DNA from: Pseudomonadota bacterium
GTDB lineage: Bacteria; Pseudomonadota; Gammaproteobacteria; Burkholderiales; Rhodocyclaceae
Direction: 5' to 3'
Length of the DNA stretch: 64,000 bases
Assembly: GCA_018240785.1 (NCBI GenBank)
Contig: JAFEFC010000031.1
Span: 124,001-188,000 of the forward strand
Below are positions 14,740 through 20,761 of this stretch, piece by piece. The translations under genes were made by a program, and so were the position numbers. The stretch's first letter is position 1, and every line of letters begins with the position of its first letter. The notes below the pieces were generated by a model, which saw only the letters and a program-made list of their open reading frames with translations, made no database searches and was not told the DNA's origin.

Positions 14740-15573
14740 TCAGGCGAGCTCCATCTCGCCTTCGAACACGGTCGTCGCGGGGCCGGTCATCAGCACCGGC
14801 GCGCCCTCGCCCGGCCACGCGATCTCCAGCGCGCCGCCGCGGGTATCCACTCGCACCGGCGATTCCAGCAGGCCGCGCAGGATGCCGGCGACCACCGCCG
14901 CGCAGGCGCCGGTGCCGCAGGCGAGGGTCTCGCCCGCTCCGCGCTCGAACACGCGCAGGCGGATGTGATGGGCATCGACCACCTGCATGAAACCGGCGTT
15001 GACGCGCGCAGGGAAGCGCTCGTGGCGCTCGATCAGCGCGCCCTGCGCCGCGACCGGCGCGGCATCGACGTCGGCCACCACCTGCACCGCGTGCGGATTG
15101 CCCATCGACACCGCGGTCATCGCCACCGAGTCGGCGCCGACCTGCAACGGCTGCACCACCGCGTCGGACTCGGACACGAAGGGAACGTCGGCCGGCTTCA
15201 GCACCGGCACGCCCATGTCCACCGTCACCAGGCCGTCGTCGCGCAGGCGCGGCGCGATGATGCCGGCACGCGTCTCGACGCGGATCTCGCGCTTGTCGGT
15301 GAGCTTCTTGTCGTGCACGAAGCGCACGAAGCAGCGCGCGCCGTTGCCGCACTGCTCCACCTCGCCGCCGTCGGCGTTGAAGATGCGGTAGCGGAAATCC
15401 ACGCCCGGCTGGGTCGCCGGCTCGACCACCAGCAACTGGTCGCAACCGACGCCGAAATGGCGGTCGGCGATGGCGGTGACGCGCGCGGGCGTCAGCTCGA
15501 CGGCAGCGCGGGTGGCATCGATCACGACGAAGTCGTTGCCGAGGCCGTGCATCTTGGTAAAGCGCAATCTCAT
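14740..15573 (-). CDS. dapF: Diaminopimelate epimerase
   Basis: A 277-residue cofactor-independent racemase that interconverts LL- and meso-diaminopimelate for lysine and peptidoglycan. The two catalytic cysteines are in place: EQCGNGARC (Cys about 75) and [12 protein letters not shown] (Cys about 219). The N terminus [19 protein letters not shown] is typical. It lies 23 bases after the acyltransferase gene in a leftward operon lpxL-like, lpxL-like, dapF, DUF484, xerC. Confidence 0.95.
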
Positions 15574-15596
15574 CTGACAGGTCCGGAAGTTTCAGA

Positions 15597-16466
15597 TCAG
15601 TACAGCTTGGGCTCGCCGGGCGGCCGCGTCTTGAAGCGGCGATGCACCCAGTAGTACTGCTCGGGCATGGTGCGGATCACGCCCTCGAGCCAGGTGTTCA
15701 TGCGCGCCACGTCGGTGTCGACATCGGCGCCGGGGAAATTGTCCCACGCCGCGCCGATGTGCAGCACGCAGCCGCCTTCAGGCTGCAGGCGCGCGACGCA
15801 GGGCAGCACCACCGCGTCCGCCAGCCGCGCCAGCCGCGGCAGGCCGGAGATGGTGGCGGCCGGAATGCCGAAGAACGGCACGAAGATCGATTCGCGCGGG
15901 CCGTAGTCGAGGTCGGGCAGATAGTAGAAGGGCCGCCCCGACTTCATCGCCTTCACCGTGTTGCGCACGCCATCGCTGCGCGACAGCAGCAACTGGTCGC
16001 CGAAGCGGCTGCGGCCGTGGTAGAGCCAGCGGTCGAACACCTTGTTCTTCTGCCGCGCGTAGATGCTGACGGCGTTGATCTCGAGGGTGAGCCGGGTGCC
16101 GGCCATGTCGAGGCCGAGGAAATGCGGCGCGAGCAGGATCACCGCGCGCCCCTCGTCCTGCGCCCGCCGCAGATGCTCCAGGCCTTCGATGCGCACCAGC
16201 TCCCGCAGGCGTTCCGCGCTTGCCCACCACAGCAGGCCACGCTCGAGCAGGCTGCGGCCGAGCAGCGCGAAGTGCTGGCGGGCCAGGCGCCGGCGCGCGA
16301 GGTCGTCGAGTTCCGGGAAGCACAGCCGCAGGTTGGTGAGGACCACATGGCGGCGCCAGCGCGCGAACGGATACAGCAGCAGGCCGAAGCCGCGCCCCAG
16401 GCGCACAAGCAGCGGCAGCGGCAGCAGGTGCAGCAGCCAGATCAGACCGACGACGAGATGGCTCAT
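15597..16466 (-). CDS. Lipid A late acyltransferase, LpxL/LpxM family, copy 1
   Basis: A 289-residue Kdo-dependent lipid A acyltransferase family protein, inner-membrane anchored by LVVGLIWLLHLLPLPLLVRL near the N terminus. The catalytic HX4D motif is APHFLGLD; PFYYLPDLDYGPRESIFVPF and the C-terminal EQYYWVHRRFKTRPPGE are further family signatures. It adds a secondary acyl chain to the lipid A precursor. It overlaps the upstream paralogue by 4 bases (ATGA), so the pair is probably translated together and supplies the two late acyl transfers. Which one is LpxL and which LpxM cannot be read from sequence alone. Confidence 0.9.
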   Translation of the reverse strand: MSHLVVGLIWLLHLLPLPLLVRLGRGFGLLLYPFARWRRHVVLTNLRLCFPELDDLARRRLARQHFALLGRSLLERGLLWWASAERLRELVRIEGLEHLRRAQDEGRAVILLAPHFLGLDMAGTRLTLEINAVSIYARQKNKVFDRWLYHGRSRFGDQLLLSRSDGVRNTVKAMKSGRPFYYLPDLDYGPRESIFVPFFGIPAATISGLPRLARLADAVVLPCVARLQPEGGCVLHIGAAWDNFPGADVDTDVARMNTWLEGVIRTMPEQYYWVHRRFKTRPPGEPKLY

Positions 16467-17392
16467 CGCTCGCCCCCTGCGCTGCGCTCACCGCCATCGG
16501 CCGCCCCGGCACCGGCATCGCGAGCGGACGCCCCGCCATCGGCGTCTTCTTCGGAGCGCACGGAACGCGGCGTCTTGTAGCGGTTGTAGCCCCACAGGTA
16601 TTGCTCGGGACGCAGCATGATCAGGCGCTCGACTTCGCGGTTGATGGTGGCGCAGCGCGCCTCGAGATCGCCTTCCAGCGGCAGGGTCGGCGGATACAGG
16701 CGCATCACGAAACCTTCCCCGCGCGGCAGGCGCTCGACCCAGCAGTAGAGGGTGCGCACGCCCTTCACCTCGGCCAGGCGCGCCGCCAGCGTCATCGTCC
16801 ACGCCGCACGGCCGAAGAACGCCGCCCACACGCCTTCGCCCGCGCCCGGCACCTGGTCGGGCAGCATGCCGACCGCGCCGCGGCCGCGCAGTGTCTTCAC
16901 CAGCTGGCGCACGCCCGACAAATCGGCCGGCGCCGCGCGCAATTGCGGCCGGCTGCGCCCCTGCTCCATCAGCGGCGCCAGCGCCGACTTGCGCGGCGGC
17001 CGGTAGAGCACGGTGATGGGCTCGCGCGTGGCGATGTACTGCGCGTTGATCTCGAAGCAGCCCAGGTGCGGCGTGATGAACAGCAGGCCGGCACCGTCGC
17101 GGCGCGCCTCCTCGACCAGCTCCCAGCCCTCGACGCGCACCTTCTGCATGACTTCCTCGACCGGTCGCAGCCACACCCAGGCGATCTCGATGAACTGGCG
17201 GCCGGTTTCGGCGATCGCCGCGCGCAGCAGGCGCTCGTCCTCGCGCCCGAGGGCATTAAAGAGGTTCTGCCGCAGGCGACGGCGGTAGGTGGGCGACGCC
17301 GCGTACGTGATCCAGCCCGCCCAGCCACCGAGGCGGTGCAGCCAGGACAGGGGAAGACGGGCGAGAAGGCGGAACAGGGATTGGACGATCAC
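16463..17392 (-). CDS. Lipid A late acyltransferase, LpxL/LpxM family, copy 2
   Basis: A 309-residue paralogue of the next gene in the operon, from a GTG start at 17392. It has an N-terminal membrane segment (LLARLPLSWLHRLGGWAGWI), the HX4E catalytic motif in ITPHLGCFEINA, MLPDQVPGAGEGVWAAFFG and the C-terminal EQYLWGYNRYKT. The last 30 residues are an Asp/Ala/Gly-rich tail absent from most family members. First gene of the leftward operon and divergent from metK; its promoter must lie near or inside the metK promoter region (17393-17460). Confidence 0.9.
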   Translation of the reverse strand: MIVQSLFRLLARLPLSWLHRLGGWAGWITYAASPTYRRRLRQNLFNALGREDERLLRAAIAETGRQFIEIAWVWLRPVEEVMQKVRVEGWELVEEARRDGAGLLFITPHLGCFEINAQYIATREPITVLYRPPRKSALAPLMEQGRSRPQLRAAPADLSGVRQLVKTLRGRGAVGMLPDQVPGAGEGVWAAFFGRAAWTMTLAARLAEVKGVRTLYCWVERLPRGEGFVMRLYPPTLPLEGDLEARCATINREVERLIMLRPEQYLWGYNRYKTPRSVRSEEDADGGASARDAGAGAADGGERSAGGER

Positions 17393-17431
17393 GTCGATCA
17401 GCAGGAAATCACGCTCGGCGGGCCGGAGCGT

Positions 17432-17459
17432 TTGACCTCCGGATGCAGCTTCGTATAAT
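17432..17459 (+). promoter_or_regulatory. Strong sigma-70-type promoter for metK
   Basis: TTGACC (17432-17437) and TATAAT (17454-17459) are separated by 16 bases, the best promoter match seen in the window apart from that of the tRNA. Transcription would start near 17466, immediately before the first stem of the riboswitch-like leader. Confidence 0.8.
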
Positions 17460-17468
17460 TATGACTTA

Positions 17469-17548
17469 GCCGCCGAGTTAACTCGACAACTTGCAGGGCG
17501 GCCACCGCGGGGCGAAGCGTCCCGATCGGCAAAACAAGTTCTGCTAAA
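17469..17548 (+). promoter_or_regulatory. SAM-II-like riboswitch aptamer in the metK leader
   Basis: The layout matches an H-type pseudoknot of the SAM-II class. P1 is GCCGCC (17469-17474) with GGCGGC (17497-17502). Loop 1 holds AACTTGCAG, whose AACTTG (17488-17493) pairs with CAAGTT (17535-17540). The 3' side reads AAAACAAG..GCTAAA (17531-17548), which from memory matches the conserved CUUGCAG...AAACAAG..GCUAAA of SAM-II. An extra hairpin at about 17505-17529 is inserted in loop 3. Downstream, GCTGCTC (17555-17561) is complementary to GAGCAGC (17626-17632), which overlaps the metK ribosome site, so translational control is likely. SAM binding is inferred from motif and gene. Confidence 0.75.
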
Positions 17549-17635
17549 GCGTCGGCTGCTCGAAAGCATCCCCGGAGCCGGCCGCGACGCAAGGCCAGTG
17601 CGAACCGGGGATTTCGCGTTCTTTGGAGCAGCATC

Positions 17636-18802
17636 TTGAGCAATACCTACCTCTTCACTTCAGAATCCGTTTCCGAAGGCCATCCCGACAAGGTCGCCGA
17701 CCAGGTCTCCGATGGCGTCCTGGACGCCATCCTCGCCGAAGACCCGAAGGCGCGCGTCGCCTGCGAGACGCTGGTGTCCACCGGCCTCGTCGTGATCTCG
17801 GGCGAGATCACCACCACCGCCCACCCCAACTACCGCGAAATCGCGCAGGAAGTCATCCGCCGCATCGGCTACGACAACTCCGACATCGGCTTCGACTACA
17901 AGAGCTGCGCGGTGCTGGCGGCGATCAACCGCCAGTCGCCCGACATCGCCCAGGGCGTGAATGCCGCCAACGACGACCCGCTCGACCAGGGCGCCGGCGA
18001 CCAGGGCCTGATGTTCGGCTACGCCACCAACGAGACCGCGGCTCTGATGCCGCTACCGATCTACTACGCGCACCGCGTGATGCAGCGCCAGGCCGAAGTG
18101 CGCAAGGACGGCCGGCTGCCGTGGCTGCGCCCGGACGCCAAGAGCCAGCTCACGGTGAAGTACGTCGACGGCAAGCCGGTGGCGATCGACACCGTGGTGG
18201 TATCCACCCAGCACGACCCGGACGTCACCCAGGAGCAGATCCGCGAGGCGGTGATCGAGCTCATCATCAAGCCAGTGCTGCCGCCCGAGCTGATGCGGGG
18301 CAACGTGCGCTATCTGGTGAACCCGACCGGCCGCTTCGTGGTCGGCGGACCGCACGGCGACTGCGGCCTGACCGGGCGCAAGATCATCGTCGACACCTAC
18401 GGCGGCGCGGCCCACCACGGCGGCGGCGCGTTCTCGGGCAAGGACCCGTCCAAGGTCGACCGCTCGGCCGCCTACGCCGGCCGCTACGTGGCGAAGAACA
18501 TCGTCGCTGCCGGCCTGGCCGATAAGTGCGAGGTGCAGGTGGCCTACGCGATCGGCGTGGCACGCCCGGTGAGCCTGATGGTGAATACCTTCGGCACCGG
18601 CAGGATCGCCGACGACAGGATCGTGGAGCTGATCGGCCGCCACTTCGACCTGCGCCCGAAAGCGATCATCCAGACGCTGGACCTGCTGCGCCCGATCTAC
18701 TCCAAGACCGCCGCCTACGGCCACTTCGGCCGCGACGAGCCGGAATTCACCTGGGAGCAGACCGACAAGGCGGCTGCGCTGCGCGCGGACGCGGGCCTGT
18801 AA
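17636..18802 (+). CDS. metK: S-adenosylmethionine synthetase
   Basis: A 388-residue MetK that makes SAM from methionine and ATP. Signature segments are [17 protein letters not shown] near the N terminus, the ATP loop [15 protein letters not shown] and the P-loop-like [20 protein letters not shown]. It uses a TTG start at 17636 preceded by GGAG at 17625-17628; the weak start codon and a ribosome site that can be sequestered fit tight control by the leader. Length is normal. Next on the same strand, after a repeat-rich spacer, is the ahcY operon. Confidence 0.96.
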
Positions 18803-18827
18803 GAGAAAGGAAAACGCAACAAGCCAA

Positions 18828-18923
18828 GCCGGCCGTGCTGGGCATTCCTGGAAAGGGCGAGGACTGTCTGAGCCCGCAGGGCGAGTTCCGCAGCCCTTGG
18901 AAGGAATGCCCAGCGCGGCCGGC
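18828..18923 (+). repeat. Palindromic repeat element with conserved core, copy A
   Basis: Two 22-base arms (18828-18849 and 18902-18923) are inverted repeats with a single mismatch and enclose a 52-base core. The core reads GGCGAGGACTGTCTGAG then GGCGAGTTCCGCAGCCC. A second element with a related core, in the opposite orientation and with entirely different arms, lies at 18971-19076. The region is not convincingly coding, although an open frame crosses both copies on the minus strand. Confidence 0.75.
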
Positions 18924-18970
18924 GGTTTGCACCCCAGACCTCAGAGCATCCGGGTCAATCGCCCGAATCC

Positions 18971-19076
18971 GGTCTGGCTGCAGGGGAAGCGCTCCGTCAG
19001 GCTGCGCAACTCGACCTCGCTTCGCTCGGGACTCGAACAGTGCTCGCCTGCTCCACGCATCCCCTGCAGCCAGACC
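18971..19076 (-). repeat. Palindromic repeat element with conserved core, copy B
   Basis: Arms at 18971-18991 and 19056-19076 (21 bases, one mismatch) enclose a 64-base core. Read on the minus strand, the core has GGCGAGCACTGTTCGAG followed by GTCGAGTTGCGCAGCC, matching copy A's core while the arms share no sequence with copy A. Conserved core with locus-specific arms suggests a structured mobile or RNA element and not simple duplication. Confidence 0.72.
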
Positions 19077-19143
19077 TGCCGCGTTGCGAACTCCGCCCCC
19101 TCTTCTCTTCTCAACGCACACATTAAACCCAAGAATCTGAAGC

Positions 19144-19149
19144 TATAAT
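19144..19149 (+). promoter_or_regulatory. -10 box of the ahcY operon promoter
   Basis: A perfect TATAAT lies 9 bases before the first base of the SAH aptamer, so transcription would begin almost exactly at the aptamer. No convincing -35 was found about 17 bases upstream (ACATTA-like sequence). The correct placement relative to the riboswitch supports the call. Confidence 0.6.
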
Positions 19150-19158
19150 TCGACTTTT

Positions 19159-19261
19159 CCGAGGAGCGCTGCAAGGCGCCGGCTGCATCCCCTGCAGCGG
19201 CCCCCAGGCTCGGAACCCGTCACCAGCAGCAATCTGACGGGGCTGTTCAACGGCGCTCACC
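19159..19261 (+). promoter_or_regulatory. S-adenosylhomocysteine (SAH) riboswitch
   Basis: The element carries the hallmark strings of the SAH riboswitch: CCGAGGAGCGCTGCAA at the 5' end (19159-19174), CCAGGCTCGG in the middle (19204-19213) and ACGGCGCTCACC at the 3' end. P1 pairs CCGAG (19159-19163) with CTCGG (19209-19213), and the pseudoknot pairs GAGCGC (19164-19169) with GCGCTC (19253-19258). It is followed by ahcY, its classic target in betaproteobacteria. SAH binding normally turns expression on. No U-tract terminator lies between it and ahcY, so control is probably translational through the 90-base region 19262-19351. Confidence 0.93.
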
Positions 19262-19351
19262 TGGTACTACCTCTCAACCCTGCCGGGTTCGGGATGTCGG
19301 GTGAGCATGCTGCCGTACCCCCTCCCTCCCGGCCATAGCACGGAGCTTCAC

Positions 19352-20761
<1,410 letters not shown>

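Follow-up and report, generated by a model that had tools for sequence, protein, structure and literature searches.

The metK gene lies on the + strand of the window, by which we mean the whole 64,000-nucleotide stretch of DNA that was analysed. It starts with TTG (17636..18802) and was assigned to methionine adenosyltransferase by its open reading frame and a 608-bit match to metK in NCBIfam (equivalog). Upstream, on the + strand like all features of the leader, a candidate sigma-70-type promoter with the arrangement TTGACC-16 nt-TATAAT (17432..17459) agreed with the consensus at 11 of 12 positions (mean 0.1 in shuffles). From the position of this strong promoter-like site the transcript should begin at about 17466, i.e. 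2-3 nt 5' of P1, the first helix of the leader.

Positions 17465-17554 of the leader make up a conserved H-type pseudoknot. P1 joins GCCGCC (17469..17474) to GGCGGC (17497..17502) and is backed by co-variation, so that the 6-bp helix given in a preliminary description of this DNA holds. The three strings which that description associated with SAM-II, CTTGCAG (17490-17496), AAACAAG (17532-17538) and GCTAAA (17543-17548), are all present in the leader. The third strand, GAGUUAA (17475..17481), we take to be positions 8-14 of SAM-II, with U478 and U479 corresponding to U11 and U12 and G477 occupying the place of U10 in canonical SAM-II copies. P2 is divided into P2a, CGAC (17484..17487) paired with GUCG (17551-17554), and P2b, GCAG (17493..17496) paired with CUGC (17541-17544). 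The 3' strand of P2b overlaps the conserved GCUAAA (17543-17548; together 17541..17548), while U491 and U492 of the predicted ligand site directly precede its 5' strand. Minimum free energy (MFE) folding placed a P3-like hairpin of 25 bases in loop 3 (17505..17529). Contacts to SAM were assigned by homology to the solved SAM-V as described in PMC6061858; they concern the third strand, whose letters are conserved in relatives, and the predicted contacts U545 and A548.

Between the pseudoknot and metK, MFE and co-variation pointed to a helix termed the anti-sequestor. Its 5' arm (17549..17561) includes the 3' strand of P2a (17551-17554) and an anti-Shine-Dalgarno strand (anti-SD), GCUGCUC (17555..17561), the latter examined by duplex comparison in relatives. 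Its 3' arm (17575..17590) consists of GAG (17575-17577), CGGCC (17579-17583) and GACGC (17586-17590). A hairpin AUCCCCGG...CCGGGGAU (17568..17612, MFE) is situated between the anti-SD and the Shine-Dalgarno sequence (SD). The latter, GGAG (17625-17628), is found inside GGAGCAGC (17625..17632), and GAGCAGC (17626-17632) pairs with the anti-SD.

On the other side of metK, just 3' of the gene, a long inverted repeat (18824-18927) gave sub-threshold matches to microRNA models on both strands. The neighbouring gene ahcY (19301-20761) is preceded by a SAH riboswitch (RF01057, 49 bits, 19155-19265); metK and ahcY each have an RNA element of their own.

Comparative analysis of the pseudoknot and its core

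A search of 61 related genomes turned up MetK in 58, and the regions upstream of 50 of these matches were extracted. The strict motif occurred in 34 of them, and one more (L046) contained a near variant. Letters conserved in the strict relatives were GAGUUAA, GACAACUUGC and GCUAAAGCGUCG. An alignment was made of 29 of the 34 strict leaders, the other 5 being near-duplicates, and the conserved P2 was composed of P2a CGAC/GUCG and P2b GCAG/CUGC. The preliminary description had proposed AACTTG/CAAGTT as P2. We rejected this pairing: CAAGTT occurred in no more than 5 strict relatives out of 34 (L001, L003, L004, L006, L018), and the helix would occupy both U residues of UUGC, which belong to the ligand site. 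It might serve as a SAM-free alternative pairing in the lineage of the window.

In the 29 leaders the 14 pairs of the pseudoknot (P1 and the two-part P2) were formed in 95.3% of the cells. Changes on both sides were seen in 24 cells, compared with a mean of 6.8 in shuffles and 0-6 when the strands were slid. Further pair types (11) were no more numerous than after shuffling, which gave a mean of 10.1 and reached the observed value in 176 of 500 trials. Two-sided changes in P2b of relatives comprised GCGG/CCGC, GCGU/ACGC and GCGA/UCGC. The 11 leaders from outside the genus alone contained 13 double changes versus 3.6 in shuffles. Model R2, built from these 11 leaders, scored the element of the window at 68.6 bits with an E of 4.4e-17 (short calibration, rough; next best place in the window 11.6 bits), a figure somewhat flattered because the leaders had been chosen with a search expression derived from the whole set, the window among it.

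A larger collection of loci contained 181 metK starts, 162 with the motif as defined by a regular expression and 19 without; two of the latter (L062 and L066) do match model R1. Removal of duplicates left 151 of the 162 motif-bearing leaders; the start was usable in 150, and 147 were kept as distinct. In 146 of these 147, P1 was paired in 850 of 876 cells (749 shuffled) and P2b in 583 of 584 (549 shuffled). The third pair of P2b was G-C in 85, A-U in 50 and G-U in 10 of the 146 leaders. Three pairs of P2a were nearly invariant and the first one (C484-G554) formed in 75 of 146 leaders; P2a is thus neutral, without support from co-variation. The co-variation that the preliminary description had proposed as a check among related metK leaders was accordingly found in P1 and P2b.

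The core strings of SAM-II, UU, UUGC and GCUAAA, were kept in all 75 R1 matches examined, i.e. the better-scoring ones (72 R1 loci plus L089, L095 and L110). These strings hold U11, U21, U44 and A47, which we take to be the ligand-contacting nucleotides in SAM-II numbering. Position 10 was G in 33 of the 34 strict leaders and in all 29 R1 matches listed. It was G also in 146 of the 147 leaders, most loci having been fetched with a pattern that demands this letter. Presumably U10 is typical of the canonical SAM-II third strand, and it was seen in the canonical copies here as well; G for U10 is the one clear core change with respect to SAM-II.

Positions 13 and 18 were coupled, with AA in 173, GG in 32 and other combinations in 5 of 210 motif occurrences (205 of 210 A-A or G-G). 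The metK-type RNAs had A-A and the metX/metZ-type RNAs G-G. In our own reading this fits the homopurine G-G or A-A pair of SAM-II predicted by Barrick and Breaker. A coupling of position 10 with position 18 was considered as well and was not strict.

Loop 3 (L3) was 8-126 nt long with a median of 30 nt; in 33 of 147 leaders it had 12 nt or less. Hairpins in long L3 (108 leaders) folded better than shuffles with a mean z of -2.85. The inserted hairpin of the preliminary description was reproduced in the window by MFE folding, but in relatives it varies and is sometimes absent. The extra hairpin is optional, not fixed.

Rfam scans, distribution and neighbouring elements

An Rfam scan of 15000-20000 (E<=5) detected no SAM-sensing family at the metK leader. 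With gathering scores applied across the entire window, Rfam gave a tRNA and the SAH riboswitch (19155-19265) and nothing else. The SAM-II model RF00521, which has a gathering cut-off of 36 bits, did not match the metK leader in a search of the whole genome (E<=10); it scored another place, the metX copy, at 27.4 bits. Among relatives, RF00521 scored the metK element in 1 of 13 loci of one scan (L033, 21.4 bits) and in 1 of 8 loci of another (L234, 20.9 bits), both below cut-off. It gave 19.1 bits at the element of L055, a relative with U10, and matched the R1 place in 0 of 20 loci of a further scan. The Rfam SAM-V model, presumably RF01826, had no match in the window or the relatives' loci scanned (E<=5 or E<=10), and neither SAM/SAH (RF01727) nor SAH (RF01057) matched at the metK leader. 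The preliminary description had counted a missing Rfam match against a SAM-II-like element; no significant match was obtained at the element of the window, though the co-variation of its relatives supports the motif.

The element could be an ordinary SAM-II that Rfam misses mainly through the long L3, an explanation that overlaps with our own and differs in filing. It has the same core, the same G-G/A-A pattern and the same pathway, and the two relatives with 20.9-21.4 bits have a short L3. Yet five other short-L3 relatives (L026, L027, L029, L041, L047) and 11 further short-L3 loci with R1 matches 59-63 bases long were not matched by RF00521. Moreover, position 10 was G in 33 of 34 leaders versus U in canonical copies, and in many members there is a hairpin resembling the P3 of SAM-V. 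We consider this filing unlikely, though by no means negligible, and treat the metK RNA as a variant.

Within the window's order, R1 matched 225 of 349 genomes (E<=0.01); for the class the figure was 121 of 369 and for the phylum 38 of 349 (phylum E<=0.001). These tallies mix both types because R1 also finds canonical SAM-II, including copies before metZ, metX and others. A DNA pattern demanding the core strings and G10, for which conservation among the loci is by construction, occurred in at least 119 stretches of named genomes. Among the 119 matches listed 106 were followed by metK, and 8 by a gene for a small protein starting with MYDC; 3 reached the contig end, and for 2 the following gene was not assigned. 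Titles were read for 80 of the at least 119 matches, and by these titles all 80 were betaproteobacterial or from MAGs labelled only Proteobacteria; record titles of the carriers include Burkholderia, Bordetella, Cupriavidus, Thauera and Accumulibacter. The same leader was present in L008 from the window's genus and in L175 (Thauera aminoaromatica S2). Thus the view that a betaproteobacterial metK version would be an unusual oddity did not survive: neither the R1 tally for the order, canonical SAM-II included, nor the 106 of 119 listed matches preceding metK speak for rarity.

Related elements also precede metF and non-met genes. RNAs of the G10 type are located before the MYDC protein in L092, L097, L107, L141, L160, L162, L171 and L179. 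The protein had no Pfam match (L092, L107) and no NCBIfam match (L107), and by eye its gene is followed by one for a MATE-type transporter in L107, L141 and L162. A MoxR-like AAA ATPase is encoded downstream of the element in L110 and L056 (Pfam) and in L052 and L058 (by eye). In L063, L243, L244 and L245 a related RNA with GATTTAA/GATTTAG, CAACTTGC or CTACTTGC, a P3-like hairpin and GCTAAAGCGCTGG precedes a protein of about 100 residues; it had no Rfam SAM-family match at E<=10. The genus of these four loci looks like Pseudomonas, and L063 carries the Pseudomonas sRNA P11.

A SAM aptamer was positioned directly 5' of the R1 match in 7 of 32 loci scanned. The partner was SAM-II in L053, L055, L056, L064, L097 and L107 and SAM-I/IV in L110, with scores above cut-off in L056, L064, L097 (44.8 bits) and L110 (44.9 bits) and just below it in L107 (34.3 bits). 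The second element was of the G10 type only in L097, L107 and L110; in L053, L055 and L056 it had ACAACUUGC but U10, and in L064 it was canonical. Among these tandems, SAM-II stands 5' of the element of a MYDC gene in L097 and L107, and the MoxR-type loci have SAM-I/IV before the element in L110 and SAM-II in L056 (L058 by eye). Tandem SAM-II is known, with a terminator in the first and ribosome-site control in the second position, and 44 examples are given in PMC9481103. The SAM aptamers neighbouring the element provide independent support for SAM as its ligand. Opposite the SAM-II elements of L053, L055, L056, L097 and L107 there was a match below cut-off to Bp2_287 (RF02424), a predicted Burkholderia sRNA; this family may be an antisense reading of SAM-II-type elements.

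Alternatively, the ligand might be a relative of SAM such as SAH, decarboxylated SAM or methylthioadenosine, with G10 retuning the adenine side of the pocket. G10 stands in place of a U which, in SAM-V, is in contact with the U that binds adenine (U8-U47; PMC6061858), and a SAM-aptamer variant for another ligand, spermidine, is described in PMC10853860. On the other hand, the two U with O4 facing the sulfonium were kept in all matches checked, and according to the same SAM-V text (PMC6061858) this contact is thought to discriminate against SAH. Since the gene codes for SAM synthetase and the tandem partners are SAM aptamers, such a ligand appears very unlikely, and we favor SAM.

The ribosome-site platform and the proposed switch

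The preliminary description had GCTGCTC (17555-17561) pairing with GAGCAGC (17626-17632) across the GGAG of the TTG-started metK. This pairing is present and co-varies. The SD is situated about 70 nt 3' of P2a and is paired with a separate strand, the anti-SD. In the 147 leaders the anti-SD:SD duplex had -15.10 kcal/mol with the leader's own strands, -11.34 with swapped and -10.02 with shuffled ones (controls ignore descent), and the own duplex beat the swapped one in 118 of 147. The sequences differ widely by lineage, e.g. CUGCUC/GGAGCAG and CUUCAGACUCC/GGAGUCUGAAG. A pairing of the anti-SD with strands of P1, looked for by eye, was inconsistent between lineages.

A motif of the GAGCCGGYAACGC type lies further 3' and is complementary to the stretch GCGUCGCC(U)GCUC, which runs from the P2 3' strand into the anti-SD. 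GCGU paired far downstream in the MFE structure of 82 of 147 pre-SD segments, the window's segment not being among them. The anti-sequestor had -16.97 kcal/mol with own, -15.45 with swapped and -12.57 with shuffled strands (147 leaders; controls ignore descent); own strands beat swapped ones in 107 and shuffled ones in 133 of 147. A fit of 9.5 of 11 template pairs was reached by 69 of 147 leaders with their own strands, in 27% of swapped and in 2.2% of shuffled trials, and the rate in swapped leaders means that part of the fit reflects shared sequence. Anti-sequestor sequences differ between Burkholderia, Bordetella/Achromobacter and Rhodocyclales. In the window the helix combines GCGUC/GACGC, GGCUG/CGGCC and CUC/GAG with -17.5 kcal/mol on its own. 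It was part of the MFE structure when the transcript ended at 17592 or 17600 and was displaced once the end was at 17612. At full length (17549-17640) the closed form had -40.3 kcal/mol versus -29.8 when the anti-sequestor was imposed in almost the same register.

Blocking the pseudoknot strands in a pseudoknot-free equilibrium calculation barely moved the exposure of the SD, which was 0.258 without and 0.246 with the block. The shift was within 0.05 in 110 of 146 leaders (Wilcoxon p 0.0013; p-values here overstate independence because the leaders are related by descent). This calculation does not support switching of the SD at equilibrium by the pseudoknot alone.

Taken together, the comparative data support formation of P1 and P2b and co-variation of two downstream helices, sequestor and anti-sequestor, that share strands. 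A three-way switch in which P2, anti-sequestor and sequestor compete for two strands is a plausible model. When SAM is low, the anti-sequestor (17549-17561 with 17575-17590) would form as the RNA is made; it would hold back the anti-SD and metK would be translated. With ample SAM the ligand would lock P2 and make GCGUC unavailable to the anti-sequestor. The anti-SD would be freed, the SD would be closed and production of SAM synthetase would stop. Fixation of P2 by SAM would amount to feedback repression of SAM synthetase by its product SAM. Because the full-length RNA of the window favours the closed form, the switch is probably decided during transcription.

Could the hairpin CCCCGG/CCGGGG act by terminating transcription, with SD pairing being secondary? 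U-rich stretches follow this hairpin in sister leaders of the genus (CGGGGATTTTTGTTTT). However, a scan of the window and of L013 found no terminator-like site with loops of 3-8, a range in which a large-loop stem would be missed, and the anti-SD:SD pairing co-varies. We regard termination as improbable. Still less probable is a binding site for a protein, e.g. in autoregulation by MetK, or a constitutive structure that tunes translation, either of them operating without a riboswitch. The predicted stability of the anti-SD:SD duplex with or without the pseudoknot would agree with this, but the invariant letters are those that contact SAM in solved relatives, and related elements occur before metF and non-met genes and in tandem with SAM aptamers. 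Thus we favor the view that the metK leader is a cis-acting riboswitch with a variant SAM-II/SAM-V aptamer, to which we assign a probability of roughly 0.8; comparison and folding underlie the pairings, while ligand binding, direction and timing of the response are inferred. The RNA probably lets the cell stop making the SAM-producing enzyme when SAM is plentiful.

Comparison with known SAM riboswitches

The preliminary description's main points, i.e. an aptamer similar to SAM-II, metK as its target and sequestration of the SD, are backed by the comparative evidence. SAM-II outside the alphaproteobacteria has been in print since 2005. A table footnote in PMC8814607 (2022) states that regulatory elements in the 5'UTRs of metK, metX and metZ of B. 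thailandensis were suspected and confirmed (unpublished data). The metK element is therefore not wholly unforeseen, given this footnote. Apart from it, our search of the open-access literature yielded no account of the metK aptamer as such, for which reason we rate the variant as new and keep it out of RF00521. We take the metK leader RNA to be a new and widespread variant of the known SAM-II/SAM-V kind of riboswitch.

One might go further and set up a class of its own within the SAM-II/SAM-V superfamily, defined by the G10 pocket, an optional P3 and three exclusive helices that commit during transcription, and acting in Betaproteobacteria as the principal feedback of SAM on metK, with further outliers in Pseudomonas, while being practically unseen by Rfam 15. 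We put this forward tentatively, at rather less than even odds. The metK RNA indicates that G in place of U10 and large inserts in L3 are compatible with the SAM-II/SAM-V core, and the metK leaders are well suited to testing, by comparison, the coupling of a translational platform to P2.

A second aptamer copy in the genome of the window (L081, C5:33028-33087, - strand) is of the canonical GATTTGA/CAGCTTGC type. It precedes metX (NCBIfam) and has a terminator-like hairpin by eye. For betaproteobacteria, Leyn 2014 predicted conserved regions forming a pseudoknot before metX/metZ; the L081 copy is probably this metXZ element, which would then be SAM-II.

SAM-II long loops (RF01726) resemble the metK RNA by their name, SAM-II with long loops, but are listed for Bacteroidetes and marine samples (Weinberg 2010) and were unmatched in our scans. 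SAM-II and SAM-V have a common core and recognise SAM in the same way (PMC6061858). With SAM-II (SAM_alpha, RF00521) the metK RNA has in common the H-type pseudoknot of P1 and P2, UU in the third strand, UUGC and GCUAAA. The A-A/G-G coupling, the methionine-pathway genes and a promoter just 5' of P1 agree as well (Corbino 2005; Barrick and Breaker 2007). It differs in having G for U10 and a long, often hairpinned L3, and in lying below or outside the reach of the Rfam model. In addition, it combines metK with a translational platform, whereas SAM-II of alpha- and betaproteobacteria has mostly been linked to terminators. With SAM-V it shares the binding core and, as proposed here, translational control (PMC6061858); in leaders with a long L3 a hairpin occupies the place of the SAM-V P3, 3' of P1 and 5' of the second P2 strand. 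Unlike SAM-V, the metK RNA has no match to the Rfam model and keeps the SD outside P2a, where it would be closed by the separate anti-SD helix.
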